Both the position numbers and the translations under genes were made by a program. Source: an uncultured Bacteroidales bacterium (GTDB lineage: Bacteria > Bacteroidota > Bacteroidia > Bacteroidales > Paludibacteraceae). Taken from it: 64,000 nt of DNA. Position 1 is the first letter of the stretch, and every line of letters begins with the position of its first letter. Positions 633 through 56,935 of the stretch are shown one piece after another. The notes beneath the pieces were generated by a model that was not told the origin of the DNA, made no database searches, and saw only the letters and a list, made by a program, of their open reading frames with translations. The DNA lies in NCBI GenBank assembly GCA_902799555.1, contig CADCBB010000006.1, positions 1-64,000 of the forward strand, written 5' to 3'.

Positions 633-676
633 CGTAAAATCGTACATCGTACATTTGTAAATCGTAAATCGTAAAT
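633..676 (+). repeat. Heptamer array, CGTAAAT/CGTACAT type
   Basis: About six units of CGTAAAT or CGTACAT follow each other with a near-constant 7-bp period in the rplM leader. Nearly the same array lies just before ribH at 30771-30802, so this is a dispersed family, not chance low complexity. Confidence 0.8.
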
Positions 677-712
677 GATGTCTGTCGGCCAAGCCTAAAA
701 CAAACAAAATTA

Positions 713-1168
713 ATGGAATACAATTCTTACAAGACAGTGTCTGTAAACAAAGCTACCGCTAAGAAAGAGTGGGTAGTGGTTGACGCTGAGGGCCAGATCT
801 TAGGCCGTATGTGCTCCAAAGTAGCTAAACTGCTGCGTGGTAAGTACAAACCGTCCTACACTCCGAACGTGGACTGTGGTGACAATGTAATCATCGTGAA
901 CGCTGACAAAGTGCAGCTGACCGGTAACAAATGGAACGATCGCGTGTATGTTCGTTACACCGGTTTCCCGGGTGGCCAACGTGAGTTCACTCCGGCTGAC
1001 CTGATGGCTAAGGGCGCTGACAAGCTCGTTCGCAAAGTAGTAAAAGGTATGCTGCCGAAGAATCGTCTCGGTGCTCGTCAGATCACGAACCTGTACATTT
1101 TCGCAGGTGCAGAGCACAACATGCAGGCACAACAACCGAAAGTAATTGATATTAACACCCTGAAATAA
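713..1168 (+). CDS. rplM: 50S ribosomal protein L13 (uL13)
   Basis: Large-subunit ribosomal protein that binds 23S rRNA early in assembly. The whole 151-aa sequence fits uL13: the motif KEWVVVDAEGQILGR near residues 18-32, the RGKYKPSYTPN segment, and KGMLPKNRLG near residue 117 are family signatures. The ATG at 713 agrees with the usual Bacteroidales N-terminus (SYKT). It is 8 bp from rpsI, the conserved bacterial pair, and is driven by the promoter at 524-555. Confidence 0.97.
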   Translation: MEYNSYKTVSVNKATAKKEWVVVDAEGQILGRMCSKVAKLLRGKYKPSYTPNVDCGDNVIIVNADKVQLTGNKWNDRVYVRYTGFPGGQREFTPADLMAKGADKLVRKVVKGMLPKNRLGARQITNLYIFAGAEHNMQAQQPKVIDINTLK

Positions 1169-1176
1169 TAGAAGAT

Positions 1177-1563
1177 ATGGAAACAGTTAATGCATTAGGT
1201 CGTCGTAAAGAGGCAGTAGCTCGCGTTTACGTTAATGAAGGTGCCGGCAAGATCGTTATCAACGGTCGCGACATCGAGACATATTTCCCGTCTTCTATTC
1301 TGCGCTATATCGTTCTTCAGCCGCTGAACAAACTTGGTGTTGCTGAGAAATACGATATCAAGGCTAACCTTGACGGTGGTGGTTTCAAAGGTCAGGCAGA
1401 GGCTTTGCGTTTGGCTATCGCACGTGCGCTGGTGAAGATCAATCCGGAAGACAAGGCTGCATTGAAGGCAGAAGGCTTCATGACTCGTGACGCTCGTGAG
1501 GTTGAGCGTAAGAAACCGGGTCAGCCGAAGGCTCGTAAGCACTTCCAGTTCAGTAAACGTTAA
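1177..1563 (+). CDS. rpsI: 30S ribosomal protein S9 (uS9)
   Basis: Small-subunit protein whose C-terminal tail reaches the P-site tRNA. The 128-aa product starts with LGRRKEAVARVYV and ends in the expected basic tail with terminal SKR. It is cotranscribed with rplM. A large stem-loop follows the stop codon, consistent with the end of the two-gene operon. Confidence 0.97.
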   Translation: METVNALGRRKEAVARVYVNEGAGKIVINGRDIETYFPSSILRYIVLQPLNKLGVAEKYDIKANLDGGGFKGQAEALRLAIARALVKINPEDKAALKAEGFMTRDAREVERKKPGQPKARKHFQFSKR

Positions 1564-1573
1564 TCGGAAGAAT

Positions 1574-1624
1574 ACTCCAAATCGTGTGGACTCCTTCGGG
1601 ATTACCACACGATTGTTTTGGAGT
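1574..1624 (+). terminator. Large stem-loop after rpsI, probable operon end
   Basis: An outer stem ACTCCAA/TTGGAGT (1574-1580 with 1618-1624) and an inner 9-bp stem ATCGTGTGG/CCACACGAT (1581-1589 with 1605-1613) form a 51-nt hairpin. No U run follows, so it may be a processing or stabilising structure and not a classical terminator. The next 110 bp hold only GC-alternating sequence and an AT-rich stretch before rpsB. Confidence 0.5.
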
Positions 1625-3563: not shown

Positions 3564-5396
3564 ATGAAAACATTCTGGAAGATATGTGGATGGGGAGCGC
3601 TAGTAATAGTGCTCCTCTTTGCTTTGATACTTGGCGTCGTCTCTCCGATAGCCAAGTATGTAGTGAACAATCATGGCGAAGATATCGTTGGTCGTGAGCT
3701 GCATGCCGACCAAGTGATCATCAATCCTTTCTGGGGAGGAGTGAGCATTAATGGCTTTGAATGTAAAGAAGCCAACGGCGAGACGAACTTTATCTCGTTT
3801 GACCGACTCTATGTGCAAATCGCTTATCCTCAACTGATTGCCAAACGTGTCAAGATCCGTGCCATCCATCTGGACGGCTTCAACGGTCAGGTCCTCAAGA
3901 GTCGCGACCGACTCAATTTCTCCGATATCGTGGAGCGTTTCAGCCCAAAAGATACAGTGAAAACGACCGTCGAAGCAACCGATGCAAGCGCAAAAAATCC
4001 TTGGACGATTGCGCTCGACGATATCCGCATTAATAATAGTTCGGTGCGTTACCGAGATGTGATCTCTGATAAACAATGGAAAGTGGAGGATATATCGCTA
4101 CGCATCCCGGGTGTTTTCTTTGATAACACGCAGACTAATGCCGGACTGGAGTTTGGTCTACCGACAGGTGGTCGGGTAGGTATCATCGCCGGTTATAAGA
4201 TGCAATCGAACCGCTATGCCGTTCGGCTGAACTTAGAGGACGTGCATACGGATGTAGCATTACCCTTGGTGCAGGATTACTTGAATGTCAGCGGTTTAGG
4301 GGCAAAAGTGAACGGTAACATTCATGTAGACGGTAGTCTGGATAATATCACTAATATTCAACTCAAAGGTCGTTTGGCGATGACAGGTTTGAGCATCAAA
4401 GACACGCACGATGATCAGGTCGCAGCGATGGATGAACTACGGGTAGTGGTCAACAAAGGTGACCTGAATACCAAAACCTTCATCCTCGATAGCCTCATCC
4501 TCACCGGCATCACCGGTGACTACGAGGTGCATGAGAGTTGGAATACCCTTTCACGGCTGATGAAGAAGAATGATGAGAATGATGAAATGAGCGCGAAAGA
4601 TTCGCTCAATGATGTGACACCGTCTTCTAATAATGTAAAGCCGCTTGTTTGGATGGCGAAGAAAGTGAAGATCACGGGACATGACCTGATGTACCACGAC
4701 TACTCGATGAAACATGAGTGGGAGTATGGTATCCAAACGCTGGAAATAGCAGGCGATAACATCGCAACCAACGGTCGTAATGCCGTGAAGATCGATGCTA
4801 CCTTGACTTCCGATGCCAAATTGAAACTGGATTTCATCGGCGGTACGGATTTGGCGCACCAGGACACGCGGGCAGAACTGAAGATGAGTGGCGTACAACT
4901 GAAAGATTTCAATGCCCTCTGCCGTAACTATACCGGCTATCCCTTGAATGGCGGAGAAATGCGTGTTGATAGCCGCATGGATGTGGTATCCGGAAAGCTG
5001 AAAGGCGCTAACCGAATCATCATCAATCATCCCAGAGTAGGTCGGCGCGATCTTATTACCAAAGCCAAATACAAGGATGTCCCTGTTCGTCTTGGTGTCA
5101 AGATGCTGACCTCCGCGCAAGATATGATCGTATTGGATGTACCGGTGACAGGCGATGCCACGAATCCGAAATTCAACCTCAACAAAGTGATCGGTCGTGC
5201 ATTGCTCAAAGTGTTTTTCGGACCCTTAATGGGCGTGAATGACCGCAAGAACCTAAGCGAAGAAGAGATGGAAGGACTGCTGGAGATTATGGGAGAAGAC
5301 GCTCCGTCACTCAGCAATGATACGATGGCTCAACTCCCGGCAGACGTCGCAACGCATGCAGGGGACAGTAGTGTTCTCTCCGAAATAAGCAAGTAA
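3564..5396 (+). CDS. AsmA-like / DUF748 envelope protein
   Basis: Predicted inner-membrane-anchored periplasmic protein of the AsmA/DUF748 group, a family linked to lipid transport between membranes in other bacteria. One membrane segment lies near residues 10-30, followed by about 560 residues of beta-rich repeats without catalytic motifs. Segments near residues 55-110 and 440-540 look like DUF748. It follows tsf by 17 bp and may share its transcript. Its last 90 bp overlap the 3' end of recQ on the other strand. The exact substrate cannot be read from the sequence. Confidence 0.75.
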   Translation: MKTFWKICGWGALVIVLLFALILGVVSPIAKYVVNNHGEDIVGRELHADQVIINPFWGGVSINGFECKEANGETNFISFDRLYVQIAYPQLIAKRVKIRAIHLDGFNGQVLKSRDRLNFSDIVERFSPKDTVKTTVEATDASAKNPWTIALDDIRINNSSVRYRDVISDKQWKVEDISLRIPGVFFDNTQTNAGLEFGLPTGGRVGIIAGYKMQSNRYAVRLNLEDVHTDVALPLVQDYLNVSGLGAKVNGNIHVDGSLDNITNIQLKGRLAMTGLSIKDTHDDQVAAMDELRVVVNKGDLNTKTFILDSLILTGITGDYEVHESWNTLSRLMKKNDENDEMSAKDSLNDVTPSSNNVKPLVWMAKKVKITGHDLMYHDYSMKHEWEYGIQTLEIAGDNIATNGRNAVKIDATLTSDAKLKLDFIGGTDLAHQDTRAELKMSGVQLKDFNALCRNYTGYPLNGGEMRVDSRMDVVSGKLKGANRIIINHPRVGRRDLITKAKYKDVPVRLGVKMLTSAQDMIVLDVPVTGDATNPKFNLNKVIGRALLKVFFGPLMGVNDRKNLSEEEMEGLLEIMGEDAPSLSNDTMAQLPADVATHAGDSSVLSEISK

Positions 5397-7001
5397 GACC
5401 TGCTCACGGCAGAACTGGTCCTGCTCCGCATATTCCAGCATTGCCTTGATTTTAGCGACAAAGCGCTCTTGGCGCGCTTCATAAATAGCGGGCGATAGAT
5501 AGATCTCTGTCTGTCGCTCGTTTGTCATGGTAAGCGAGCAACCTACGCTACGAGGAATATAGGTGATAATGCCTCGTTGAGCCAGCGAGACTAATAACTG
5601 ATGGTTGTTCTTGTCGTCTGCTTCCCGTACATATTGCAGATCGGTATAAATGCCGGTATAGGAACGCATCAGGGTATCCAGCATATAGGCTTGATCCGTA
5701 GAAAGGTTATATTCACCTAATAGATGACGCGGCACCTTGATCTGCACACGTGGCAACGTCTCATGTTCCTCTTCGAAATCGATATATCCGGCTTGAGTAA
5801 GCAGATGAAGGGCAGAGTAGGTTTGTATAACCGGCAGTTTCATTACATGACACAACTCGTCTATATGAAGCATAAACCGATGCCCAAGCCCGCTACCGGC
5901 GCCTATCTGCAGAAAATCCATCGTCTTATGATAGACCTGCTCCACAAACTCTTTGGGCGGATAGGTATTCGTGATGCGTTGTTGAATCTTCGCCGGATCT
6001 TCGTGCGGGTCAAAAAGCAAAACCGCATAGGCCGTTTGACCGTCTCTACCTGCCCGTCCTGCTTCCTGATAGTAGTTCTCCAAGTGCGACGGCAAGTCAT
6101 AGTGTATTACCAAGCGCACGTCAGGCTTGTCTATACCCATACCGAACGCATTGGTCGCCACAATAACGCGCGTCTCACCTCGCGTCCACGCTTCTTGCCG
6201 TTCATTACGCTCTTTGGTGGTTAATCCTGCGTGGTAATAATCTGTATGCAGGAATGCTGCCAACTCTTGCGCACGCTTTCTATTCCGTACATAAACGATG
6301 GCAGAACCCGGCACTTTGGATAAGATATGTACAAGTTGTTCGGGTTTATTATTCGTACGCCGTACGACATAGGTCAAGTTCTCCCGCCGGAAGGACTTGC
6401 GCAGTACATTCTTTTCTGCAAAACCCAATTTGTCTTGTATGTCATCGATGGTCTCCGGTGTGGCGGTCGCCGTCAAGGCTAAAACCGGAACGTCGGGTAA
6501 TAACGCTCGAACAGTTGCTATATTCAGATACGAAGGCCGGAAATCATACCCCCACATGGAGATACAGTGTGCCTCATCCACCGCAATCAGCCCGATAGGC
6601 AGGTCAGCCAAACGCTTGCGAAACTCTACACTCTCAAGTCGTTCAGGACTGCAGTAGAGAAAATGGTAAGGACCATAGAGGCAATTATCCAAGGCTACAC
6701 GTTGTTTGTCATACGTCATGCCGGTGTAGATAGCCGCGGCATGGATACCCCGCGCCTTAAGGTTCTCCACCTGATCTCGCATCAAAGCGATGAGCGGCGT
6801 GATGACGAGGCATAAGCGCTTATTCGGATCGTCCTGCGCCATGACGAGAGTAGGTATCTGGAAACAGACACTTTTTCCTCCGCCGGTAGGCATCAGCGCG
6901 AGCGTATCACGCCCTGCTAAGACGGACTCGATGATCTCCGACTGCAAGGGTCGGAAATCATCGTATCCGAAAAATATTTTTAACGCTTCGCGGGCTGTCA
7001 T
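5307..7001 (-). CDS. recQ: RecQ-family ATP-dependent DNA helicase (short form)
   Basis: 3'-5' DNA helicase of recombination and fork repair. Visible motifs are Walker A TGGGKS near residue 40, DEAH box VDEAHCISMWGYDFRP near residues 139-154, motif III ALTATA, motif VI near QEAGRAGRDG, and the RecQ-Ct zinc cluster with C-terminal Cys residues (CMRCDVC). At 564 aa it lacks the HRDC domain of longer RecQ proteins. It is 26 bp downstream of gltX and may be read from the same long transcript. Its 3' end overlaps the AsmA-like gene by 90 bp. Confidence 0.93.
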   Translation of the reverse strand: MTAREALKIFFGYDDFRPLQSEIIESVLAGRDTLALMPTGGGKSVCFQIPTLVMAQDDPNKRLCLVITPLIALMRDQVENLKARGIHAAAIYTGMTYDKQRVALDNCLYGPYHFLYCSPERLESVEFRKRLADLPIGLIAVDEAHCISMWGYDFRPSYLNIATVRALLPDVPVLALTATATPETIDDIQDKLGFAEKNVLRKSFRRENLTYVVRRTNNKPEQLVHILSKVPGSAIVYVRNRKRAQELAAFLHTDYYHAGLTTKERNERQEAWTRGETRVIVATNAFGMGIDKPDVRLVIHYDLPSHLENYYQEAGRAGRDGQTAYAVLLFDPHEDPAKIQQRITNTYPPKEFVEQVYHKTMDFLQIGAGSGLGHRFMLHIDELCHVMKLPVIQTYSALHLLTQAGYIDFEEEHETLPRVQIKVPRHLLGEYNLSTDQAYMLDTLMRSYTGIYTDLQYVREADDKNNHQLLVSLAQRGIITYIPRSVGCSLTMTNERQTEIYLSPAIYEARQERFVAKIKAMLEYAEQDQFCREQVLLAYFGENTTVPCMRCDVCRELSHRIIAE

Positions 7002-7002
7002 A

Positions 7003-7040
7003 ACTAGGATCCTAGGATACTAGGGGCCTAGGCTCCTAGT
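7003..7040. repeat. Octamer array of CTAGG words, holding the gltX stop
   Basis: Five 8-bp units of the form CCTAGGAT/ACTAGGGG/CCTAGGCT fill the space between recQ and gltX. Read leftward they encode the last residues of GltX (Leu-Gly-Ala) and its TAG stop. CTAG is a rare tetranucleotide in many bacterial genomes, so five copies in 38 bp stand out. A related array lies inside ispE. Confidence 0.8.
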
Positions 7041-8569
7041 TTTTTCAAAGCAGCACGAACACGTGCTATGGTCTCTGCTTTTCCGAGCACATCGGTGATG
7101 GCCCAGATATGCGGACCACGTGCCGCACCTACCAGACAGATGCGGAAAGCGTTCATCACGATGCCCACACCGTACTCATGAGCCTCAATCCAAGGCATAA
7201 CGATACCATCCAAGGTCTCTGCGTCCCAAGAAGGAGCGCCTTCGAGTACCTCGAGTAACTCGGTCATATGTTTGGGCGAATCTTCTTTCCAACGTTTCTT
7301 GAGCGATTTCTCTTCATATTCCGTCGGTGCTACAAAGAAGAAATTCGTTTGTTCCCACAATTCCGGAACGAAGTTCACGCGGTCTTTGGTCAAACCCACC
7401 ACTATTGCTACCATCTGCATGTCCGGATTCTCAATGCCGTTAGCCTTCAAGGTCGGCAAGAACATCTCTGCCAACTCCTCATTGCTGCGTAACTGGAGAT
7501 ACTGGTGGTTGAACCATTTGCCCTTCTCGTAGTCAAATTTGGCACCCGATTTAGATACGCGATCCAGCGAGAACTCTTTGATGAGTTCGTCCATGGTGTA
7601 CATCTCCTGATCACCTGTTCCGTGCCAACCTAGCAGGGCGAGGAAATTAATCACCGCTTCAGGCAGATAGCCGCTCTCACGATAGCCACTTGAAACCGTA
7701 CCATCTTTCTGGTTATGGAACTCCAGCGGGAAGACCGGGAAACCGAGACGATCACCGTCACGTTTGGAGAGTTTACCGTTACCATCGGGTTTAAGCAACA
7801 ACGGAAGGTGTGCAAATTGCGGCATTGTGTCCTGCCATCCAAAAGCACGGTAAAGCAGCACGTGGAGTGGGGCAGAAGGCAACCATTCCTCACCACGGAT
7901 CACATGGCTAATCTCCATCAGGTGATCATCCACAATATTGGCCAAATGGTACGTAGGCAGATCATCGGCTGACTTATACAGCACTTTGTCATCGAGGATG
8001 TTGGAGTTGATGACTACCTCACCACGAATCAGATCATGTACATGCACATCCTCATCCGGCTCCACTTTGAAGCGAACGACATATTTCTCACCCTTATCTA
8101 TCAGCACTTTTACCTCCTCAGCCGATATGGTGAGGGAGTTACGCATTGCTAAGCGCGTACGGGCATCGTATTGGAAATTGGGGATCTCCGCACGTTTTGC
8201 CTCGAGTTCTTCCGGCGTATCAAAAGCGATATACGCGTGCCCCGAATCAAGCAACTGTTTAACGTACTGATGATAGATCTCTCGACGCTCGCTCTGACGA
8301 TACGGGCCATGCTCACCTACGGCTTCAATCTTGCCATTTCGCATACGAAGACCTTCATCAATGCCGATGCCTAACCATTCTAAGGCTTCGAGAATGTATT
8401 CTTCTGCACCGGGCACAAAGCGCGTACTGTCTGTATCTTCGATACGAAGCAGCATATCACCGCCATGTTGACGGGCAAAAAGATAGTTGTACAAAGCGGT
8501 ACGAACACCGCCAATGTGAAGTGCGCCGGTAGGACTTGGCGCAAAACGAACTCTTACTCTTCTTTCCAT
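7028..8569 (-). CDS. gltX: Glutamyl-tRNA synthetase
   Basis: Class I aminoacyl-tRNA synthetase that charges tRNA-Glu. The 513-aa protein has the HIGH-like motif GALHIGG at residues 15-21 and the KMSKS-like KLSKRDG near residues 263-269. It starts 4 bp after the initiating sugar transferase gene, as if it belonged to the polysaccharide operon. The final codons and stop are made of CTAGG repeat units, which suggests the repeat replaced the original end. Confidence 0.96.
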
Positions 8570-17756: not shown

Positions 17757-18512
17757 TTAGATATGCTCTTCTACACCGCGGAAGTGTACATTCAACTCAT
17801 GCAAATGCTCCAACAATGTACCCAGCGAGGTGCCTTTGGTCATTTCAGCGAAGGCATTGACATCTTTCGGGAAACATTTACCGCCGTATCCGAACTTACC
17901 ATCAGGACCCGGAACATACGTGTGCGTGTCGTTGATGTAACCCGACAACAGAATACCGGTATGAACCTTTCTCCAGTCAGCGCCCATCTGCTCGCAGTAC
18001 TCACGGCACGCATTGAAATACGTTACTTTGTATGCACCGAATACATTGTGCATGTACTTTGTCAACTCTGCCTCTAACGGACTCATTACGGTAAATTTCT
18101 TACCTACGAAAATCTTCGTCAGCAATTCCTGTGCGCCGGTGAAGACCATGGTCTGCTTGTTGAAGTCTTCGATGAACGTACGCTCGGTCAAGAACTCCGG
18201 CATGTAGTACACGTTGTGTCCGGTCTCTTTGGTCAGCATCGCACTCGTGCCCGGCAGAATGGTCGTACGAACGAAGACCGGTACGTCCGGCAGGTTCTTG
18301 ATCAATTCCTTCATCAGACGCAAATCCTGCGTACCATCTTCTTCTGTCGGCACGTGAATTTGCAAGAAAGCGATGTCGATGTCGCTCAAGTCATCATTGT
18401 AACCCTTGTACGGGTCGCTGATGAATAACTTGCACTCCGGATTGTTGTTCTCCAACCAATTTTTTAAGGCTCCTCCTACGAAGCCACACCCAATAATTCC
18501 AACTTTAATCAT
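17757..18512 (-). CDS. Short nucleotide-sugar dehydrogenase-like protein
   Basis: It has the NAD motif [11 protein letters not shown] (residues 5-15), the central domain and the catalytic Cys213 in [14 protein letters not shown], but stops at 251 aa, soon after the active site. The C-terminal sugar-nucleotide-binding domain of the family (about 120-150 residues) is absent. The ORF is intact and well conserved in its motifs, so it is probably a genuine short form and not decay. It is the first gene after the operon promoter. Confidence 0.75.
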
Positions 18513-18541
18513 AATTTTTATTTGTTTGATTTATTTCTTTC

Positions 18542-18566
18542 ACTTTTCACTTTTCACTTTTCAACT
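18542..18566. repeat. Heptamer array, ACTTTTC type
   Basis: Three exact ACTTTTC units (18542-18562) and a partial one lie in the leader between the leftward promoter and the first dehydrogenase gene. Confidence 0.7.
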
Positions 18567-18580
18567 TGCAAAAAAGCGGG

Positions 18581-18663: not shown

Positions 18664-18698
18664 AATTTTCAATTTTCAATTTTCAATTTTCAATTTTT
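18664..18698. repeat. Heptamer array, AATTTTC type
   Basis: Four exact AATTTTC units and a fifth partial one directly precede the -7 element of the rightward promoter, so the array occupies the -33 region. Confidence 0.8.
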
Positions 18699-18763: not shown

Positions 18764-21700
18764 ATGAAAAATTTTAAACTGTGGAATGTGCTTTGTGGCT
18801 GGCTCGTTTTTGCTGTCGCAGCTGCAACGTACCTCCTTACGATGGAGCCCACCGCTTCCTTCTGGGACTGCGGTGAGTTCATCTCCAGCGCCTGGAAACT
18901 GGACGTTGGACACCCGCCCGGAGCACCTTTTTTCATGCTCATGGGGCATTTCTTTAGTCTGTTTGCGTCGGATACAGCGCATGTGGCCATGTGTGTCAAT
19001 GCCTTGTCTGCCCTCGCCAGTGCTTTCACCATCCTCTTCCTTTTCTGGACGATCACGGCCTTGGCGAAGAAACTTGTGCAACCCGACACAACATGGAAAG
19101 GCATCGCTCTGCTCGGCGCAGGAGCCGTAGGAGCACTCGCGTACACCTTCTCCGACACCTTCTGGTTCTCGGCGGTAGAAGGCGAGGTATATGCTTCCTC
19201 ATCGCTCTTCACAGCTGTCGTGTTCTGGCTCATTCTCAAATGGGATGAACAGGCAGACGAAGAGGGTAGTGACCGTTGGCTTATTGCGATTGCGTACCTC
19301 ATGGGTCTCTCGATCGGTGTCCACCTGCTGAACTTGCTGACCATCCCTGCAATCGGACTCGTTTATTACTTCCGTAAATACGAGTTCTCATGGAAAGGTC
19401 TCTTCTATGCGTTCCTCGCATCGTGTGCGGTACTGCTGGTGATCCTCTATGGTATCATCCCGGGCTATCCTACCGTGCTGGGCTGGTTTGAACTGTTGTT
19501 TGTCAACGGTTTCGGCTGTCCGTTCAATACGGGTCTCGCGGTTGCCATCGTGCTGACCGTAGCACTGCTTGTTTGGGCTATCTGGTACACCCGCAAACGT
19601 GAATGGCGTTGGGCGAACACAGCTGTTCTCATGGTAACGGTCATCCTGATCGGTTATAGTTCGTACGCTGCCCTCGTGATCCGTTCCAATGCGGATACGC
19701 CGATGGATCAGAACTCGCCGGATAACGTCTTCTCGCTCAAGTACTACCTCAACCGTGAGCAGTACGGCGATCGGCCTTTGTTCTACGGCCAGACCTACAA
19801 CGCGCCGGTTGAATTGCGCGTGGAAGGAAACATGTGTATCCCGGTAGAGAAAATCGGCCATGCACAGTACGCGCCGGCACCCAAAGTGGAAGGCGAGAAA
19901 GACCATTATGTCGTTACCGGTCATAAGACTTCCTACCAATACATGAAGCAGTTCTGCATGCTCTTCCCGCGTATGTATTCTTCGCAAGGAAGTCATGTCG
20001 GCGCTTACAAAGAGTGGGCGAATGTCAAAGGAAAACGCGTGCGTTACGAGTACTGCGGACAGCAGAAAACGGATTATTGTCCGACCTTCGGCGAGAACCT
20101 CCGTTTCTTCTTCCGTTACCAGGTTAACTTCATGTACTGGCGCTATTTCATGTGGAACTTCGTCGGCCGCCAAAACGACCTGCAGTCCTATGGCGATATT
20201 ACCAAAGGTAACTGGATCTCCGGTATTGATTTCATCGACAACGCTATGTTGGGTGATCAGTCGTTGCTGCCTACCGAACTCAAGGAGAATAAAGGTCATA
20301 ATGTCTATTATTTCCTGCCGCTCCTCCTCGGTATCATCGGTATCGTTTGGCAATGCGGCAAACGCGATAAAGACGGTAAAGCAGAGGGTTGGAAGAACTT
20401 CACATTGACCTTCCTCCTCTTCTTCCTTACCGGTCTTGCGATCGTCATTTACCTCAACCAGACGCCGTACCAGCCGCGTGAACGTGACTATGCGTACGCG
20501 GGTTCTTTCTATGCCTTCTGTATCTGGATCGGTCTTGGCGTACTGGCTATCATCGACTGGATCAATAACTATCTCAAGTCTGATTCCGGTAAGGCCTGCG
20601 TGGCTGTCTTGGCTTCGCTCCTCTGCCTTGGAGTTCCGGCTTTGATGGCCCAACAGAACTGGGATGACCACGATCGTAGCCAACGCTACTCTTGCCGCGA
20701 TTTCGGTGCTAACTATCTCAAGTCCTGCGAGACGCAAGCGATCCTATTCTCCAACGGAGACAACGACACCTTCCCGCTTTGGTACAACCAAGAGGTAGAA
20801 GAAGTAGGTACCGACCTCCGCGTCTGCAACCTCTCGTACCTGCAGACCGACTGGTATATCTCGCAGATGAAGCGTCCGTACTATGAGTCAGAGGCACTGC
20901 CGATCTCGTGGGAATATAAGGATTTCATGCCGGGTACCAACGAGATAGCGCGTGTCGATAACCGTCTCGGTCAACCCATCTCGGTCGAGAAAGCGTTCAA
21001 TTTCCTGCGTTCCGATGATCCGCGAACCAAGACCCGCGAAGGCGATAACTACATCCCGTCCGACCAACTCTACGTGGAGACACCGGAAGGCGAGCAGATC
21101 TTCTTCAAGAAAAAACGCATGTACACGCGTTCGGAAATGATGATCATGGAGATGCTCTCGACCAACAAGTGGCAGCGACCCATGTATTTCTGTGCAACCG
21201 TTGGTAATGATTATTACCTCGGTCTCGAGCCTTACATGGAGCTCACCGGTCTCGCATACCAAATCACGCCGACCCGTAGCCGCGATGGTCAACCGCGTGT
21301 GAACACGGAGAAGATGTACGAGAATATGATGCATCAATTCAAGTACGGCAACATGAATATCCCGGGTATCTATATCGACGAAAATCTCATGCGCATGTGC
21401 CGCACCCACCGAATGATGTTCGCCCAATTGGCAGAACAACTCATTCGTGAGAACCAACGCGACAAGGCACTTGAAGTCCTCGATTTTGCGGAAGAGCAAC
21501 TGCCCGGATTCAATATTCCGTACGATTATACCTCCGCTTCGATGGCTTCTATGTATTTCCTGCTCAAACAGGACGACAAAGCGCTTGCCATCATGGATGA
21601 GGTCGCTAAGACTTGTGTGGAATATATGCGTTTCTCGGCTTCGCTCGATCGTCGTCAGCGGGATGCAATCCGCTCTACCGTTGACCGCGAAGCAGCGATC

Positions 21701-21790
21701 CTTTCGTATGTCCTTCAGACCTGCGAACGAAACGGACAAACAGAGTTTGTAGATAAATATTACAGCGATTACGCTGCTTATGTACAATGA
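18764..21790 (+). CDS. DUF2723 / TMEM260-like protein O-mannosyltransferase (GT117)
   Basis: Large membrane protein of 1008 aa. The N-terminus has the signature TASFWDCGEFISSAWKLDVG (about residues 30-49) and HPPGAPFFML, with an acidic Asp-Cys-Gly-Glu site as in lipid-linked sugar transferases. About 12 hydrophobic segments are followed after residue 600 by a soluble helical, TPR-like region. In Bacteroidota these proteins are thought to glycosylate exported proteins. It overlaps the GTPase gene by 4 bp. The acceptor is unknown. Confidence 0.85.
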   Translation: MKNFKLWNVLCGWLVFAVAAATYLLTMEPTASFWDCGEFISSAWKLDVGHPPGAPFFMLMGHFFSLFASDTAHVAMCVNALSALASAFTILFLFWTITALAKKLVQPDTTWKGIALLGAGAVGALAYTFSDTFWFSAVEGEVYASSSLFTAVVFWLILKWDEQADEEGSDRWLIAIAYLMGLSIGVHLLNLLTIPAIGLVYYFRKYEFSWKGLFYAFLASCAVLLVILYGIIPGYPTVLGWFELLFVNGFGCPFNTGLAVAIVLTVALLVWAIWYTRKREWRWANTAVLMVTVILIGYSSYAALVIRSNADTPMDQNSPDNVFSLKYYLNREQYGDRPLFYGQTYNAPVELRVEGNMCIPVEKIGHAQYAPAPKVEGEKDHYVVTGHKTSYQYMKQFCMLFPRMYSSQGSHVGAYKEWANVKGKRVRYEYCGQQKTDYCPTFGENLRFFFRYQVNFMYWRYFMWNFVGRQNDLQSYGDITKGNWISGIDFIDNAMLGDQSLLPTELKENKGHNVYYFLPLLLGIIGIVWQCGKRDKDGKAEGWKNFTLTFLLFFLTGLAIVIYLNQTPYQPRERDYAYAGSFYAFCIWIGLGVLAIIDWINNYLKSDSGKACVAVLASLLCLGVPALMAQQNWDDHDRSQRYSCRDFGANYLKSCETQAILFSNGDNDTFPLWYNQEVEEVGTDLRVCNLSYLQTDWYISQMKRPYYESEALPISWEYKDFMPGTNEIARVDNRLGQPISVEKAFNFLRSDDPRTKTREGDNYIPSDQLYVETPEGEQIFFKKKRMYTRSEMMIMEMLSTNKWQRPMYFCATVGNDYYLGLEPYMELTGLAYQITPTRSRDGQPRVNTEKMYENMMHQFKYGNMNIPGIYIDENLMRMCRTHRMMFAQLAEQLIRENQRDKALEVLDFAEEQLPGFNIPYDYTSASMASMYFLLKQDDKALAIMDEVAKTCVEYMRFSASLDRRQRDAIRSTVDREAAILSYVLQTCERNGQTEFVDKYYSDYAAYVQ

Positions 21791-23019
21791 AAGAAATAAC
21801 TAAAATACCTGTCTTGCTGCTTACGGGCTATCTCGGAAGCGGCAAGACAACCCTTCTCAACCGCATCCTGACGAACCAGAAAGGCATTCGTTTTGCGGTT
21901 ATCGTCAACGACATCGGTGAAGTCAATATCGACGCCTCGCTCATCCAAAAGGGCGGGGTAGTATCCCAACAAGACGATTCACTCATCGCCCTTCAAAACG
22001 GTTGTATCTGTTGCTCGCTCAAGATGGATTTGATTCAACAACTCCATGACTTGGCGGCGCAGAAAGCTTACGACTATATCGTCATCGAGGCGTCCGGTAT
22101 TTGCGAACCTGCCCCTATCGCGCAGACACTCTGTTCTTATGCGCAGATGGTACCGCAATTCGCTACCGACGGCCTGCCTACGCTCGATTGTATCTGTGCC
22201 GTAGTGGACGCTCTCCGTATCCGCGATGAGTTCGACAAAGGCGATGCTTTGGCACACTATGTTCCTAAGGAAGAAGACCTTGCTGCACTCGTGATTGAAC
22301 AGATCGAGTTCTGCAATATTATTCTTTTAAATAAGGCCTCCGAAGTTAGCGAAGACGAACTTTCTCGCATCAAGTCTATTATTCGCGCTATACAACCTAC
22401 CGCCGAAATCATAGAGACAAACTACTGTGATGTGGATCTTGAGAAACTCCTCAACACCGGTCTTTTTGACTTCGACAAGGTCGCTACTTCCGCCAAATGG
22501 ATTCAGGAAATCGAAGACGCTCATCATCACCACGATGACGATGATGACGATGATGACGACGACGATCACGATGAGCATGATGATCACGATGAACATCATT
22601 CGCATCATTCCCATCATTCGCATCATTCCCACGAAGATCACGATCACCTCGCTGAATTTGGCATAGAGACTTACGTCTATTTCCAGCGTAAGCCCTTCGA
22701 CCTTGGCATGTTCGATGAGTTCGTCGCCCAGCATTGGCCGAAGAACGTGATCCGTTGCAAAGGCATGTGCTATTTTGCCGAAGAGTACGACATGTGCTAT
22801 CTCTTCGAACAAGCTGGTCGCCAGTTCAATATCCGCAAGGCCGGAGAATGGTTCGCTACCATGCCGAAAGAAGAACTCATGCAACTCATGGCAGATGATC
22901 CCCAACTGCGCAAAGACTGGGATCCGCAGTACGGTGACAGAATGCAAAAACTGGTCTTTATCGGTCAGCATCTTGACATCCCTGCCATCAAAGCCGCATT
23001 GGATAATTGCTTGCAATAA
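21787..23019 (+). CDS. COG0523 (CobW/ZNG1-like) metallochaperone GTPase
   Basis: G3E-family GTPase that delivers metals, often zinc, to target proteins. Walker A GYLGSGKT (residues 14-21), the metal-binding CxCC motif CICC (73-76) and a CobW C-terminal domain are present. Between the domains, about residues 245-290, lies a long Asp-then-His tract with 11 consecutive Asp and repeated HHS units, a probable metal reservoir. It overlaps the preceding gene by 4 bp and is 18 bp before the MalY-like gene. Confidence 0.9.
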   Translation: MKEITKIPVLLLTGYLGSGKTTLLNRILTNQKGIRFAVIVNDIGEVNIDASLIQKGGVVSQQDDSLIALQNGCICCSLKMDLIQQLHDLAAQKAYDYIVIEASGICEPAPIAQTLCSYAQMVPQFATDGLPTLDCICAVVDALRIRDEFDKGDALAHYVPKEEDLAALVIEQIEFCNIILLNKASEVSEDELSRIKSIIRAIQPTAEIIETNYCDVDLEKLLNTGLFDFDKVATSAKWIQEIEDAHHHHDDDDDDDDDDDHDEHDDHDEHHSHHSHHSHHSHEDHDHLAEFGIETYVYFQRKPFDLGMFDEFVAQHWPKNVIRCKGMCYFAEEYDMCYLFEQAGRQFNIRKAGEWFATMPKEELMQLMADDPQLRKDWDPQYGDRMQKLVFIGQHLDIPAIKAALDNCLQ

Positions 23020-26418: not shown

Positions 26419-26624
26419 AAAAGCTCATTTACATAGGAATTTTGGCGGTCTTGTGTGGCTCTTGTGCCTCGCAAGCGCCCCTTGATGATGCCTATTACTG
26501 GCCGGACAAAAAAGCAGCTTCCTTGGAATCTTCTTCGTCTGCTTCTCAGGACAAACGTCCTGAGTCCTCTATCGAGTATCTCAACATTCAAGACACCACC
26601 GTAACAATCCGTATCAATCGATGA
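26415..26624 (+). CDS. Small predicted lipoprotein, 69 aa
   Basis: A TTG start overlaps the trpS stop. The N-terminus is a lipoprotein signal: KKLIYIGILAVLCGSC, with the lipobox Cys at residue 16. The rest is Ser/Asp-rich and hydrophilic with no recognised domain. The ATG of the next gene overlaps its end by 4 bp, so it is translationally coupled to the outer-membrane protein and could be its partner. Confidence 0.65.
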   Translation: MKKLIYIGILAVLCGSCASQAPLDDAYYWPDKKAASLESSSSASQDKRPESSIEYLNIQDTTVTIRINR

Positions 26625-27919: not shown

Positions 27920-27924
27920 ATTTT

Positions 27925-30768: not shown

Positions 30769-30770
30769 AT

Positions 30771-36081: not shown

Positions 36082-37518
36082 ATGGAAGATAGCAATAAAG
36101 TCCTTTTTAATATACTAAATGAGCGCTTGGAGTTGCTCCGACAACTCGATGCCGAAGGAGACTCTGACAAACGGAGACATATAGCCCGTGAGACACAGAA
36201 TCTCCATGCTCCTATGGCGCACAGACTCGGTTTATACCAGATCAAAACCGAGATGGAGGACTTGGCGCTCAAATTCCTCGACTACGACACCTATAAATAT
36301 ATCGCGCACGCGTTGAATGCCAAAAAAGCAGAACGCGAAGCCTATATTGCTCGTTTCATTGCGCCGCTCGAGGAAAAACTCAAGGCCGAAGGATTTGCCT
36401 TTACCATCAAAGGCCGTCCTAAATCCATCCATTCAATCTACCATAAAATGCAGGCGCAGCATTGTGATGTGGACCGGATCTACGACCTTTTTGCAATTCG
36501 TATCATTCTCGATTCTCCTTTGGAGAAAGAGAAATCGGATTGTTGGCAGGTGTATTCCCTCATCACCGATATCTTCCCGCCTAACCCCAAACGACTCCGT
36601 GACTGGCTTTCTGTGCCCAAAGAGAATGGCTACGAATCCCTTCATACTACCGTCCTGGGTCCTGACAATCGTTGGGTAGAAGTGCAGATCCGTACCCGCC
36701 GCATGGATGAAGTGGCAGAGCAGGGTATAGCCGCTCACTGGTCGTATAAAGGCGTCAAAGGTTCTATCGTTCAGCAGTCGGGTGACGTCTATGTCTTCAC
36801 GCCTACAGGTGATTTGCGTCGTTTGCCAGAAGGTGCAACCGTACTGGATTTTGCTTATTCCATTCATAGCGAAGTCGGCGCACACTGCGTCGGCGGTACT
36901 ATTCGTAATCAAAACGTCTCCATTCGACAAAAACTGCAAAATGGTGATCAGGTATCCATCTTGACTTCACCAAACCAGCACCCGAATGCCGACTGGCTGA
37001 CCTTTGTGGCATCTACCAAAGCCAAGAATAAGATCCGCCAAGCCCTCAAAGAGATTGAGTACAAACAGGCAGCCGAAGGTAAGGAGATCATTGAACGAAA
37101 GTTCAAAAACTGGAAACTCGAATATACCGAAGCCGATATCACCCGCATGGCCATCAAATTGGGCTATAAAGCTGTGTCGGATATGTATCAATCGGTCGCT
37201 AACGGCAAGGAAGATATACAGCGTCTCCGCGAAGTGTTGCTCGAACCCGAAGAGCAACCCATTACCCCGCGTGAACATACGGAGTATGTGGATCGCTCTG
37301 AACTCAAGGGACTTGCTATTGAGGTCGACATGAATGTCAAGAATGTCGATTACAACCTCTCCAAGTGTTGCAATCCTGAACCCGGAGATCCGATCTTTGC
37401 CTTTGTCTCCGTACTCAAAGGTATTCGAATCCATCGTATCGACTGCCCCAACGCCGCCGATATACGTACTCGTTATCCCTATCGTATCCTTCCCGCTCGC
37501 TGGGCCAAAAAGAACTGA
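36082..37518 (+). CDS. Short Rel/SpoT-like (p)ppGpp synthetase without HD domain
   Basis: Predicted alarmone synthetase. The synthetase domain (about residues 85-215) has GRPKSIHSIYHKM, IYDLFAIRII, PKENGYESLHTTV and VEVQIRT. A TGS domain follows (about 235-300) and a zinc-finger-like CC...H...C region near 430-460. The N-terminal HD hydrolase domain and the C-terminal ACT domain of long Rel/SpoT proteins (about 700-750 aa) are absent; the protein starts at what would be the last HD helix. The promoter lies 24 bp before the ATG, so the start is real. Confidence 0.85.
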   Translation: MEDSNKVLFNILNERLELLRQLDAEGDSDKRRHIARETQNLHAPMAHRLGLYQIKTEMEDLALKFLDYDTYKYIAHALNAKKAEREAYIARFIAPLEEKLKAEGFAFTIKGRPKSIHSIYHKMQAQHCDVDRIYDLFAIRIILDSPLEKEKSDCWQVYSLITDIFPPNPKRLRDWLSVPKENGYESLHTTVLGPDNRWVEVQIRTRRMDEVAEQGIAAHWSYKGVKGSIVQQSGDVYVFTPTGDLRRLPEGATVLDFAYSIHSEVGAHCVGGTIRNQNVSIRQKLQNGDQVSILTSPNQHPNADWLTFVASTKAKNKIRQALKEIEYKQAAEGKEIIERKFKNWKLEYTEADITRMAIKLGYKAVSDMYQSVANGKEDIQRLREVLLEPEEQPITPREHTEYVDRSELKGLAIEVDMNVKNVDYNLSKCCNPEPGDPIFAFVSVLKGIRIHRIDCPNAADIRTRYPYRILPARWAKKN

Positions 37519-37549
37519 AAACTAAATACTGAAAACTGAATACTGATTT
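37515..37549. repeat. CTGANNN heptamer array before recR
   Basis: Units start at 37515, 37522 (CTAA), 37529, 37536 and 37543, all 7 bp apart. The array starts inside the last codons of the Rel-like gene and reaches the TTG start of recR. Confidence 0.8.
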
Positions 37550-38610: not shown

Positions 38611-38613
38611 CAA

Positions 38614-38678
38614 TTTAACGTTTTGTGAAACAAAACCATTTTAACTGTTTAACCATTTAACGTTTTACGCAGTAAAAC
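38614..38678 (+). promoter_or_regulatory. Twin stem-loops with TTTAAC repeats before a start codon
   Basis: GTTTTGT/ACAAAAC (38620-38636, loop GAA) and GTTTTAC/GTAAAAC (38662-38678, loop GCA) share the flank TTTAAC. The stems differ at two base pairs, and both changes are compensatory. Between them TTTAACNN recurs every 8 bp. The second stem ends 3 bases before the ATG at 38682 and would hide the ribosome site. Confidence 0.65.
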
Positions 38679-38681
38679 CTC

Positions 38682-39648: not shown

Positions 39649-39669
39649 CTGATAACTGAAAACTAAAAT
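39649..39669. repeat. CTGANNN heptamers before mce
   Basis: CTGA at 39649 and 39656 and CTAA at 39663, 7 bp apart, in the short mce leader. Confidence 0.65.
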
Positions 39670-43654: not shown

Positions 43655-44767
43655 ATGTCAAACAGACAAATTGGAACAATAGTACTGGTAATAGCCATGT
43701 TTATCGTGGCTATTTCCGTCTTGTTCACCAACAACCTCGCGCGGCAACTGCAAGACGAAGAGCAGAAGAACATGGCCATATGGGCGGACGCTACACGCCA
43801 ACTCATCTTTGCAGACAATGATGCGGATATCGATTTTGTCACTTCTATCATTGAGAAGAATACGACCATCCCTGTTTATATCTGCGATGAGCAAGGCAAA
43901 GTGCTCGCCAGCCGTAACGTCCCCGAAGGACAAAGCGGAGTAGGTAAACATGGTCCGATAGAACTGAAAATAGACGAAAATACCACCCAGTACATCTATT
44001 GGGATGATAGTAGTCTGCTTACTAGACTTCGGTACGTGCCTTATGCCCAATTCGCCCTTATCTTCATCTTCATCGCCATTGCTGTCATCACCATGCTCAC
44101 CGGACAACGTAGTGAAGAGAACCGCCTATGGGTGGGCCTGTCCAAAGAGACAGCTCACCAACTCGGCACACCTATCTCTTCGCTCAATGCATGGCAACAA
44201 CTGCTCGCAGAAGCCTACCCGAACGATGAATACGTGCCTCAGATGAAACGCGATATCGAACGCTTGCAGATGATAGCGGATCGTTTCCAGAAGATAGGTT
44301 CGGAACCGGACCTGCAAGAGATGAACCTCATTCCCGTCGTGGAAGACGCTGTGACCTATATGCGTGCGCGCATAAGTAGCCGCATCACGATTGATGATGA
44401 TAGCCTGCAAGGAGTCTCGCGTAAGGTCTATCTCAATGCGCCTCTCATCCAGTGGGTCATTGAGAACTTGCTCAAGAATGCAGTAGATGCCATTTCCGGA
44501 GAAGGAACGATCTCGCTCCAAATCCATGAGAATGAGCACGATGTGATGCTGGATATCACCGATACAGGAAAGGGTATCGACAATAAAACCCAGCGTCATA
44601 TATTTGAGCCGGGTTTCACTTCCAAGGAAAGAGGATGGGGGTTAGGCCTTCCACTCGCCAAACGTATCGTCGAGCAGTACCATGGAGGCAAACTCCTCCT
44701 TAAGCACTCGCAACTTGGTGTCGGTACGACCTTCCGGATCGTTCTTGAAAAATCCGAAAACAGTTGA
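43655..44767 (+). CDS. Orphan sensor histidine kinase
   Basis: Two membrane segments (about residues 7-26 and 127-147) frame a 100-residue extracytoplasmic sensor. The HisKA motif ETAHQLGTPISSL gives phospho-acceptor H168. HATPase boxes follow: ENLLKNAVDAI (N), DTGKGI (G1) and GWGLGLPLAKRIV (G2). No HAMP is clear and no response regulator lies nearby. It is 1 bp after oadB, so it is expressed with the decarboxylase. Its last 126 bp overlap ispE on the other strand. Confidence 0.88.
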   Translation: MSNRQIGTIVLVIAMFIVAISVLFTNNLARQLQDEEQKNMAIWADATRQLIFADNDADIDFVTSIIEKNTTIPVYICDEQGKVLASRNVPEGQSGVGKHGPIELKIDENTTQYIYWDDSSLLTRLRYVPYAQFALIFIFIAIAVITMLTGQRSEENRLWVGLSKETAHQLGTPISSLNAWQQLLAEAYPNDEYVPQMKRDIERLQMIADRFQKIGSEPDLQEMNLIPVVEDAVTYMRARISSRITIDDDSLQGVSRKVYLNAPLIQWVIENLLKNAVDAISGEGTISLQIHENEHDVMLDITDTGKGIDNKTQRHIFEPGFTSKERGWGLGLPLAKRIVEQYHGGKLLLKHSQLGVGTTFRIVLEKSENS

Positions 44768-45490
44768 GCCGCTACCACTCATACTCGCATAATAAGCGCC
44801 TGCATCCAGCAGACGCTTTTTTATTTCCCCGATAATAGGATGCAACGGAAAAACCGTCTTTTCAAAATCGTTCGTGAATTTATCTAGGTTTCCTAGGATT
44901 CCTAGTTTTCCTAGGTCTCCTAGTCCTTCACCGGTAATCGTTATCCCGCTATAAGCCTCACGGGTAGAGACCCCCTCTTCCGGTTTAATCATCACAATCC
45001 TCGTTCCCTTCAGGTCCAAATCAATCGGCGTCAGTTTATCTCCGATACCTTCTGCATAACAGGGTACATTATAGATAAAGAACGGACAATCAGCCCCTAA
45101 TTCCTTCACCTCTTCTGCCAACTGCGCCTTACTCAATCCCAATTCAAACAACTCATTCAGCGCGATCGCCATATGGGCAGCATCACTACTTCCTCCACCT
45201 AAACCGGCTCCGAAAGGAATGTTCTTTTTAAAACGAATAGATATGAGCGAATCTAAATTATACTTCTTCGCAAACTTGCTATGGCATTTTATAATCAGAT
45301 TATCCTCTGGGTTGCAATCTACCTTAATACCTTCTTGCTCAAAAGAAAACGTATCTGCCGGAACAACTTCAAGCTCATCATGTAAGCCATAAATAGGCAC
45401 AAAAATCGTCTCCAGATCATGATAGCCGTCTTCACGTTTGCGTACTACGCGCAGACCTAAATTTATCTTGCAATTCGGATATAAAATCAT
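44642..45490 (-). CDS. ispE: 4-diphosphocytidyl-2-C-methyl-D-erythritol kinase
   Basis: GHMP kinase of the MEP isoprenoid pathway. NCKINLGLRVVRKREDGYH (residues 6-24), the ATP loop PFGAGLGGGSSDAA (about 91-104) and MSGSGSTVFG near the C-terminus are diagnostic. Near residues 189-203 lies an extra LG-rich segment made of five tripeptides encoded by 9-bp CTAGG units. The 3' end overlaps the histidine kinase by 126 bp. Confidence 0.93.
   Translation of the reverse strand: MILYPNCKINLGLRVVRKREDGYHDLETIFVPIYGLHDELEVVPADTFSFEQEGIKVDCNPEDNLIIKCHSKFAKKYNLDSLISIRFKKNIPFGAGLGGGSSDAAHMAIALNELFELGLSKAQLAEEVKELGADCPFFIYNVPCYAEGIGDKLTPIDLDLKGTRIVMIKPEEGVSTREAYSGITITGEGLGDLGKLGILGNLDKFTNDFEKTVFPLHPIIGEIKKRLLDAGAYYASMSGSGSTVFGFFKNDPEGRTDTKLRVLKEEFASMVLLDDTFGEWKA
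44884..44926. repeat. CTAGG nonamer array inside ispE
   Basis: CTAG recurs at 44884, 44893, 44902, 44911 and 44920, every 9 bp. The 9-bp step keeps the frame and adds LG(D/K/I/N) tripeptides. The intergenic CTAGG array at 7003-7040 has an 8-bp step instead. Confidence 0.85.
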
Positions 45491-53322: not shown

Positions 53323-53336
53323 CACCCGATTTAAAA

Positions 53337-53364
53337 CTGATATCTGAAAACTGATAACTGACTA
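53337..53364. repeat. CTGANNN heptamer array before the XRE gene
   Basis: CTGA at 53337, 53344, 53351 and 53358, exactly 7 bp apart, ending just before the ATG at 53371. Confidence 0.8.
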
Positions 53365-56110: not shown

Positions 56111-56302
56111 ATTGTAATTTTTAATTCTTAATAAATAGGGGTCCTTCTCTAATTATGCTATTTTACATAATCACGATTAGGTTTGTTTCGGTACTATAAT
56201 TCCATATATACTTATACAAGTATTATGCCATTAATTTTTATCTGCCATTTCTCTGCCAATTTGGCAGAATTCATCGTATCATATATGCGTGATAACTTTC
56301 CT

Positions 56303-56350
56303 TCCGCATGGCACCAACCTTCGTTCGTTTCCTGAAATTTTATTCTGGAC
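56303..56350. repeat. 48-bp dispersed repeat, copy B
   Basis: It matches copy A at 29745-29792 at 43 of 48 positions. The rest of the spacer between lon and the next gene (56111-56393) is AT-rich with no gene. Confidence 0.75.
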
Positions 56351-56393
56351 CAACAAAGGATCCGTTAGATCTGTCCTTTAATATTTTTTTGGA

Positions 56394-56822
56394 TCATTTT
56401 GGGGCATTTTGGACTAATCCGTTTTTTCGTTCCTTCAGCAGTATCATCCTTACGAACACCGGAAACATCCCGTATATCTTCTTCTTACTTTCTCCCTCAT
56501 TCAAGAATGCGTCAGCGCCTCCCTGGAATTGCGCATTCCATCTTGCTCTCAATTCCGCGTATCTCGGATGGTTCTTGTCCTTCACGATCGCGCTCGCCTC
56601 CCGACAAACCTCGCTCCATATACGCGCCTGAGCCAGCTCAGCTTCAGTTCTCGGACTCTCTTCATAATTCCGTGTTCTCCGCTTAAAAATCTCCTGCGGA
56701 CCCACTTTGATCACATGTCCGCTATCATCTTTCCACTTCTTAAACCGCGCCTGAAACTGTGACCACCCGGCCAATTTCCCGCTCAGACTCTCAATTCCCG
56801 GACTCAATTCTGCTCTTGCCAT
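56394..56822 (-). CDS. Hypothetical basic protein, 142 aa
   Basis: No function recognised. The sequence is basic, helical and without a signal: GIESLSGKLAGWSQFQARF near the N-terminus, a GPQEIFKRR segment, and a Lys-rich C-terminus. The pattern resembles the 129-aa protein at 35-424, so both may belong to one small family. It opens the accessory region and follows an 11-bp repeat array. Confidence 0.55.
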   Translation of the reverse strand: MARAELSPGIESLSGKLAGWSQFQARFKKWKDDSGHVIKVGPQEIFKRRTRNYEESPRTEAELAQARIWSEVCREASAIVKDKNHPRYAELRARWNAQFQGGADAFLNEGESKKKIYGMFPVFVRMILLKERKNGLVQNAPK

Positions 56823-56869
56823 ATCTTTTCCTCCTTACACAAAAACGCAAGATCTATTTTACATAATTC

Positions 56870-56935
56870 TTTAGTTCTTTTTTAGTACTTATTTAGTATA
56901 TTTTTAGTTCTTCTTTAGTTCATCTTTTGTTCTTC
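56870..56935. repeat. 11-bp period array, TTTAGTNNNNN type
   Basis: TTTAGT recurs at 56870, 56881, 56892, 56903 and 56914, and a TTTTGT variant at 56925, all 11 bp apart. It shares the period and the TTAGT word with 29833-29886. Confidence 0.8.

Follow-up and report, generated by a model that had tools for sequence, protein, structure and literature searches.

The window analysed here, bases 1-64,000 of a contig from an uncultured Paludibacteraceae bacterium (Bacteroidales), carries many short tandem arrays with a 7-bp step. We found arrays of this kind in every genome of the genus that we sampled, and far above chance where they were set against shuffled controls, between genes as well as inside conserved proteins, and a step shared by unrelated words, as an earlier reading of the window (the original prediction) had it, proved genuine in each of them. 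The patches are A/T-rich, mostly span 20-40 nucleotides (nt) and consist of three to five imperfect copies of a 7-bp, sometimes 8-bp, word; many are two related heptamers in alternation, for which reason Tandem Repeats Finder (TRF) often prefers a period of 14. We suggest tentatively, and with somewhat less than even confidence, that the heptamer patches are written, partly in trans, by a repair or copying process and kept where they are tolerated.

The window belongs to a metagenome-assembled genome (MAG) of 2.34 Mb, here called the own genome or G000, whose best RpsB matches are to Paludibacteraceae or uncultured Bacteroidales, many of ruminant origin. The comparison set comprised 25 draft genomes, the own genome and 24 relatives, all MAGs, one per species and 54-98% complete. 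G015 was the closest of the relatives in four of five protein searches, and the aligned stretches of more than 400 bp in the two genomes are 70-94% identical, mostly at least 83%. Genes were called with our own codon-usage caller, whose misses and wrong starts (for example that of recQ, 5307-7001) carry errors into the gap counts and some counts of open reading frames (ORFs).

Seven-base-pair arrays exceed chance and are the leading class in the genomes sampled

The intergenic DNA of the window holds 12 arrays, versus 0.86 in dinucleotide-preserving shuffles; periods 7 and 14, which account for seven of the 12, appeared in none of the 50 rounds. The intergenic scan of the own genome, which covered 860 kb, gave 171 arrays versus 9.6 in shuffles, with 55 versus 0.6 at period 7, 34 versus 0.2 at period 8, 14 versus 0 at period 9 and 24 versus 0.2 at period 11, and with only one array of a 3-6 bp unit. 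Period-7 enrichment, which the original prediction had proposed to compare with shuffled intergenic DNA, is thus clearly the greater of the two, and the arrays have the 7-bp unit, in several copies above chance, of heptanucleotide short tandem repeats (STRR/LSSR kind). Period 7 was the commonest intergenic class in all five genus genomes sampled (38 of 92 arrays in G006, 27 of 87 in G007, 35 of 110 in G014 and 29 of 45 in G015, besides the own genome). Period 11 came second in G006 (16), G007 (18) and G014 (20), but neither in G000 nor in G015, of which the sample was small.

Scans of whole stretches gave about 13-46 period-7 arrays per 100 kb in seven genus genomes (15.0 in G007 and 12.7 in G014), against 2.6-4.7 in other Bacteroidales loci, and the same kind of scan found no period-7 array in 100 kb of E. 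coli K-12. In four genomes of the genus, 164 period-7 arrays were intergenic versus 156 inside ORFs, which makes them about eightfold denser per base between genes (224 kb versus 1.74 Mb coding). One sampled stretch (L058) has from position 4714 a long CACACTA heptamer array of at least 10 units, against the usual three to five.

Many arrays occupy gene junctions and leaders

Across the five genomes, 91 of the 184 intergenic period-7 arrays fell in co-directional gaps of at most 120 nt, and those in co-directional gaps of any size lay a median of 5 nt from the stop codon; for period 8, 34 of 65 were in the short gaps, with a median distance from the stop of 4 nt. The original prediction had placed the arrays at gene borders, which holds for many of these two classes and fails for the arrays at 24487, 34752 and 44884, which lie in genes, and for period 11, with only 6 of 81 arrays in such gaps and a median gap of 508 nt. 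A set of 368 co-directional gaps of 10-150 nt, drawn from the own genome and 25 relatives' loci, held 40 non-coding period-7 and 24 period-8 arrays; 10 further arrays, whose gaps are open in the downstream reading frame, were kept apart. Of the 40 period-7 arrays, 31 start no farther than 7 nt from where the stop codon begins. In 31 arrays the periodic match along that codon climbs from background at its second base, with values of 0.42, 0.74 and 0.90 for the three bases.

Comparison of orthologous junctions showed that junction arrays are often additions. The junction of the TPR gene with ribH could be read in 24 genomes. G000 and G015, which carry an identical array, have a 34-nt gap there; 18 genomes have one of -4 to +14 nt, and in the remaining four it measures 37-51 nt, with a different heptamer in one of these (G014). 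For the window junctions and seven relatives, the 41 junction-genome rows with an array had a median gap of 42 nt versus 3 nt for the 109 rows without, 23 of which exceeded 25 nt; rows with a gap outside -60 to 600 nt, or missing a flanking gene, were dropped from this table. The junction at 37518/37548 holds four different heptamers in G000, G015, G006 and G018 and is a 4-nt overlap in G003, G002 and G004, and the junction orthologous to the 8-bp array at 7002-7030 has gaps of 4, -4, -4 and 1 nt in G015, G006, G003 and G002. In the rplM leader, the variable stretch differs completely in a pair of genomes with 98% identity over the adjoining 8 kb. Upstream of rplM (around 600-700), conserved leader motifs (GGGCAGTG...GATGTCTGTCGG), apparently a hairpin, enclose this hypervariable stretch; a search of the whole window with Rfam gave no match at the gathering threshold for the leader, and two matches in 480-760 were far below it (E = 0.15 and 0.95).

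Their location between stop and start codons could mean that the arrays are selected regulatory sites, bound by S1, cold-shock or other RNA-binding proteins, or spacers that uncouple translation, and MacGregor made a regulatory proposal for TAACTGA repeats (MacGregor 2015, PMC4679880). In the sense direction, 14 of 24 period-7 and 16 of 18 period-8 junction arrays contain stops in all three frames, versus 7 and 9 in antisense. However, both the words and the presence of arrays vary at the same junction among related species, arrays also lie inside proteins, and orientation in co-directional gaps is inconsistent across words; we consider regulatory selection quite unlikely as the explanation. 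We also considered all-frame stop codons as the purpose of the arrays. Only 23-38% of the period-7 junction arrays have a stop codon at +7, +14, +21 or +28, and all-frame stops are therefore not a general reason.

Conserved proteins carry heptamer arrays in variable loops

Inside ORFs of the four genomes, period 7 stands at 156 arrays versus 1 after codon shuffling, with 82 of the 156 in a length peak of 30-36 nt. The corresponding figures are 72 versus 40 for period 6, 26 versus 8 for period 8, 77 versus 27 for period 9, 4 versus 10 for period 10 and 11 versus 7 for period 11. Since the step stays at 7 even in ORFs, where a unit divisible by three would be easier to tolerate, the common generator surmised in the original prediction is well supported. 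In a Pfam scan, nine of ten carrier proteins matched families, including FBPase, Rho, DXS, UvrD, MatE and pseudouridine synthase. Among the DXS proteins of 24 genomes and the pseudouridine synthases of 12, a given variable loop has one heptamer in one species, a different one in another and no array in yet others. Some ORF arrays, such as that of FBPase, are old and shared.

The contigs orthologous to the window contain 18 ORF arrays, 14 with an array-free ortholog and four without an ortholog; six of the 14 gained 5-10 amino acids relative to the array-free form. We compared eight of the 18, chosen for a gain of at least 5 amino acids over some array-free relative, at the nucleotide level from anchor to anchor. 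In one G015 array, 38-46 nt replace 8-16 nt of G000, G003, G018 and G002 (+30, and +30 also relative to G004), and two other G015 arrays have 38 nt for 14 and 52 nt for 28 (both +24). G003 arrays have 47 nt for 20 (+27), and 55 for 34 relative to G000 or 39 for 18 relative to G004 (both +21). A G021 array adds 15 nt relative to five relatives; one in a repetitive acidic region adds 12 nt relative to G000, but +57 and -6 relative to others; and one of the eight shows no change relative to G000. The compared gains are replacements of a different, shorter stretch, not single 7-nt steps; the net gains of 12 to 30 nt, taken against the nearest or the G000 ortholog, mean that the units did not come singly, each with its own frameshift.

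In-frame inserts of another type were seen in loops that also bear heptamer patches: a peptide like SGLTAQRSSSEAV, encoded, by eye, by repeats with a GACCGCTTCGC-like palindrome. Their sites are the G018 and G002 orthologs of the gene at 18940-19444 of G003b and the DXS genes of the same two genomes (L330, L327).

Favoured words differ among species

Three tandem copies of AGCYAAN match 348 times in G015 (167 forward, 181 reverse), four times in G000 and 0-16 times in the 23 other genomes; the same pattern read backwards, as a control, gave four matches in G015 and three in G000. Among the matches listed for G015, 100 rows represent 45 places if a spacing above 60 bp is required and 37 with one above 500 bp, and the word occurs in junctions and ORFs alike, with 12 places in 80 kb. 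An 8-bp word, ACGTNATN, is found in four of the 25 genomes, on both strands in each (G000 19, G015 23, G006 7, G018 3), with no match for the backwards control.

The leading period-7 words are AAAGTCG and AACACTC/AACTCTC in G007, CATAACT in G014, ATCATAA in G006 and GTGAAAG/GTGAAAA in G000; several words coexist in each genome, and some, such as AAAGTCG, occur in several genomes. Among 155 period-7 arrays from four genomes, words were shared by 18.7% of pairs within versus 8.5% between genomes, and the corresponding values with letter-shuffled units were 5.6% and 4.9%.

We also looked to orientation for signs of an RNA step. AGCYAAN is in sense at 10 of the 11 G015 places with a defined gene direction, and AGTCRAA is in sense at all 15 ORF places in G000 and G007 and antisense in the one G007 junction, with one AGTCRAA-like ORF array of G015 antisense as well; ACGTNATN is evenly oriented and GGTKAAA mixed. 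Orientation is thus inconsistent across words, and we did not rely on it, since peptide-level selection can explain the ORF part.

How the arrays may arise

A step independent of reading frame, replacement scars, words that differ among related species at one and the same site and the abundance of one word in a single species together point to events that each write a run of units, with words possibly coming from elsewhere in the genome. On the repair or copying account that we favour, patches would be written into the chromosome at many places and would survive where length and sequence are free, that is, between the stop and start codons of operons, in 5' leaders and in variable protein loops. 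They might originate in error-prone synthesis during repair or replication, in which a short strand would re-prime repeatedly, the template being a heptamer of the local sequence or of an array that resides at another place in the genome. Each event would then yield several units, and words already frequent would be the ones to spread. As for the 7-nt register, it would belong to the polymerase or a helper (the idea of a polymerase contact is credited by PMC4692102 to an earlier 2007 study), and no function would be needed, effects on gene spacing being by-products.

Several points weigh against this account. By eye, DXS arrays in several species take their start in the conserved codons that border the loop, which gives them a locally seeded look, and junction arrays keep register with the stop codon from its second base on; local seeding seems to occur also. 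In the junction-only set of 33 arrays, word sharing was 14% within the same genome versus 8% for unrelated pairs, a result that 22 of 300 permutations reach, and sharing at the same junction was 21% (14% without the array common to G000 and G015), at least as high as the same-genome value. Eight of the 14 ORF arrays with an array-free ortholog changed length by only -2 to +3 amino acids, a pattern that gradual decay or the replacement of older arrays would explain as well, and one anchor-limited comparison gave +23 nt versus +8 amino acids by protein alignment. All the arrays come from MAGs, one per species, which places events within strains outside the data, and the account leans on a template-switch step that we infer and on a putative polymerase or helper.

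The anchoring at stop codons and in the conserved DXS codons would also suit ordinary local replication slippage, in which nearby 7- or 8-mers duplicate everywhere and selection spares only those in junctions and loops. Slipped DNA loops of such a size escape mismatch repair, and units of 3-6 bp are nearly absent while those of 7-11 bp abound; polymerase slippage is also the explanation quoted in PMC4692102 for heptamer excess. However, slippage leaves the 348 and four matches of one word in two related species to be explained, and ORF replacements of net 12-30 nt would require frameshifted intermediates if units came one at a time. Local slippage, which the original prediction had offered as a generator, is for these two reasons unlikely as the sole cause, and we regard it as a rather doubtful explanation of the arrays.

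The other generator named there, a dedicated enzyme, would use an internal or guide template to extend DNA ends or fill gaps with heptamers, with a telomerase-like outcome, and the fixed register, several units per event, species-favoured words and replacement scars would all fit. No candidate gene was found: Ku was detected in none of the 25 drafts; the reverse transcriptase family RVT_1 in only six, being absent from 19 that include the array-rich G007 and G014; and the Y1 transposase (PF01797, E <= 0.001) in 11, eight of them over the family cut-off, with none found in the drafts of G015, G006 and G014. Single absences are weak evidence in genomes of this completeness, G007 (95%) and G014 (98%) being the stronger cases for RVT_1, but such patchy or no occurrence disfavours reverse transcriptase, Ku end joining and the Y1 transposase as a universal writer. 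With several words per genome as a further difficulty, a dedicated writer appears improbable. We likewise think it unlikely that the genus possesses an activity which writes arrays in a 7-nt register of its own (perhaps with a second at 11) and heals breaks or gaps with bursts of heptamers in trans. If it did, in-frame word scars would be expected across the proteome, and the activity would be a bacterial source of sequence resembling telomere addition, with favoured words that change by species.

To our knowledge, the origin and spread of bacterial heptamer arrays have been an open question since cyanobacterial repeats of that kind were described. The genus makes the origin testable: the operons and proteins of related species offer the same sites with and without an array, one word abounds in a single species, and at coding sites the reading frame constrains single events. 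The patches also suggest that conserved proteins are steadily supplied with new loop sequence and operons with new intergenic spacing.

Arrays in the window

TRF and our scans detected repeats at or near all the coordinates of the original prediction, save that the array at 39649 was too weak for TRF and two scans and was found at a lower threshold. On the forward strand, the conserved rplM leader has a 7-bp array of TAAATCG/TACATCG in its variable stretch (637-676), where relatives have other words or no array, and the rpsB 5' leader a 7/14-bp array of TAAACAT/TACACAT (1707-1733), where relatives, by eye, have CATTAAT-type or TTTTAAA-type arrays or none. A 7-bp AATTTTC array (18664-18697) lies upstream of the gene at 18764, with a different heptamer, CTTTCAN, in G015 by eye. 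Another (27917-27955) begins where the gene at 26621-27919 has its stop codon, a place at which G015 appears to have two other heptamer arrays, and the array at the TPR-ribH junction (30766-30802) runs from the TAA stop of the TPR gene to ribH. A 7-bp ACTGAAA array separates a relA/spoT-like gene from recR (37513-37546). The weak 7-bp array at 39649-39668 (CTGATAACTGAAAACTAA) is in the leader of a glyoxalase-family gene, and a 7/14-bp array of CTGATAA/CTGAAAA (53333-53361) in that of an HTH (XRE-type) gene, at which G015, by eye, has a 9-bp AAACTACGN array.

On the reverse strand, an 8-bp CTAG array (7002-7030) begins at the stop of a tRNA-synthetase gene (7028-8569) and ends where the recQ-like gene (5307-7001) starts, and a 7-bp array with the sense word GTGAAAA (18538-18571) occupies the leader of a UDP-sugar dehydrogenase-family gene (17757-18512), with the same array in G015. 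Three arrays on this strand are coding: a 7/14-bp array (24487-24518) inside an O-methyltransferase-family gene (24209-24838), with an array in G006 and none seen in G015; a 7-bp array (34751-34781) in frame inside a gene of the Pfam family Cons_hypoth95 (34618-35184), which we take to be RsmD-like; and a 9-bp CTAGGNNTC array (44884-44923) in frame inside a GHMP-kinase-family gene (44642-45490), presumably IspE-like. With its CTAGG array in frame inside a gene, the last of these led us to drop period 9 as a junction class. Non-coding period-9 arrays exist too, four of them in the co-directional-gap set, and three period-9 arrays in one sampled stretch (L113) look, by eye, like signal peptides.

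Two other repeats of the window are a 9/18-bp coding repeat at 22526-22631, acidic and histidine-rich, in the ORF at 21787-23019, and a perfect intergenic 38-bp tandem duplication at 63230-63305.

Period-11 arrays and dispersed repeats

The original prediction had grouped the 11-bp arrays with the 7-bp ones, and by position they form a class of their own. The window has two without assigned strand, an 11/22-bp intergenic array of TTTAGTTCTTC at 56867-56935, largely conserved in G015, and an 11/22-bp array at 29822-29887. The latter is part of a dispersed repeat with an 11-bp step (TAGTAGGTKAT), 77-113 bp of which match in copies in the sampled stretches L143, L132, L129 and L130; related arrays were seen in other genomes (L042, L043, L047 and L058). 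What had been described as an 8-bp array at 38614 turned out to be a dispersed hairpin-like repeat that occupies a gene junction on the forward strand (38611-38681), with further copies in seven other sampled stretches (L140, L123, L118, L150, L130, L132 and L125); the same junction has a heptamer array in G006. By eye, its copies are hairpins with differing arms between conserved TTTAACG and CC(A)TTTTAAC ends. Another dispersed repeat, with about 50 bp matched, lies at 29739-29792 and 56298-56350 of the window and in L124, L120, L141 and L113.

The repeats at 29822 and 38611, which do sit in dispersed units, would agree with the arrays being carried by mobile elements resembling miniature inverted-repeat transposable elements (MITEs) or repetitive extragenic palindromic (REP) sequences. 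The heptamers, however, adjoin unique flanks with nothing shared outside the array (period-7 and period-8 sites compared by eye, including few G015 AGCYAAN copies), and we think carriage by such elements very unlikely. The Y1 transposase associated with repeats of this type was found in 11 of the 25 drafts, G015, G006 and G014 not among them. The two dispersed repeats are treated as separate from the heptamer finding.

Comparison with known repeats

An excess of heptamers in bacteria was reportedly described by Mrazek and colleagues in 2007. PMC4692102, which credits the excess to a 2007 study, treats heptanucleotide repeats of the GGGNATC type in Xanthomonas and Nostoc. The arrays described here resemble these in an excess of 7-bp units, a bias (here per base) to non-coding DNA, a preference for four units and variation among close relatives; in contrast, the GGGNATC repeats are G-rich, quadruplex-forming and of one word family, whereas ours are A/T-rich, have many words and occur in coding sequence too. 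The statement in the original prediction that there is no settled description was too strong, as heptamer excess and TAACTGA sets, including those of Paludibacter, are in print (PMC4692102, PMC4679880).

TAACTGA direct repeats are known from Beggiatoaceae, Cyanobacteria and five Bacteroidetes, among them Paludibacter propionicigenes with two sets, and their possible mobility is discussed with no mechanism (MacGregor 2015, PMC4679880). Like the arrays of this genus, they are heptamer arrays (two to six units in the most-studied genome) with other heptamers mixed in, and many overlap stop codons or directly precede starts, with some in ORFs. Between two Cyanothece strains, insertions and deletions in them are mostly in 7-nt increments (PMC4679880). 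TAACTGA is one dominant word and related words are rarely repeated, unlike the many, species-favoured words here. A further difference lies within ORFs, where four genomes, sampled over about 2 Mb, have 156 internal period-7 arrays, and nine of ten carriers tested match Pfam families. Our arrays share the TAACTGA position near starts or overlapping stops and lack its tandem word: on both strands the window has nine single copies of TAACTGA and no tandem pair, two of the copies being in the mixed arrays at 39649 and 53333.

In the literature searched, mostly without subscription journals, we found no report of species-favoured heptamers inside conserved proteins. Rickettsia palindromic elements are in-frame inserts in conserved proteins and are longer palindromes; the ORF arrays resemble them as in-frame inserts in such proteins and differ in being short heptamer arrays. 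For phase-variable simple sequence repeats, whose copy number varies among strains and affects expression, the comparison extends to one genome per species, the ribH array being identical in G000 and G015. The repeats of Borgs also form recent, independently arising arrays, in intergenic DNA and in ORFs (PMC9879509). In Borg ORFs, however, the unit is divisible by three and nearly all arrays are perfect, whereas here period 7 is the commonest class in ORFs and the copies are imperfect.

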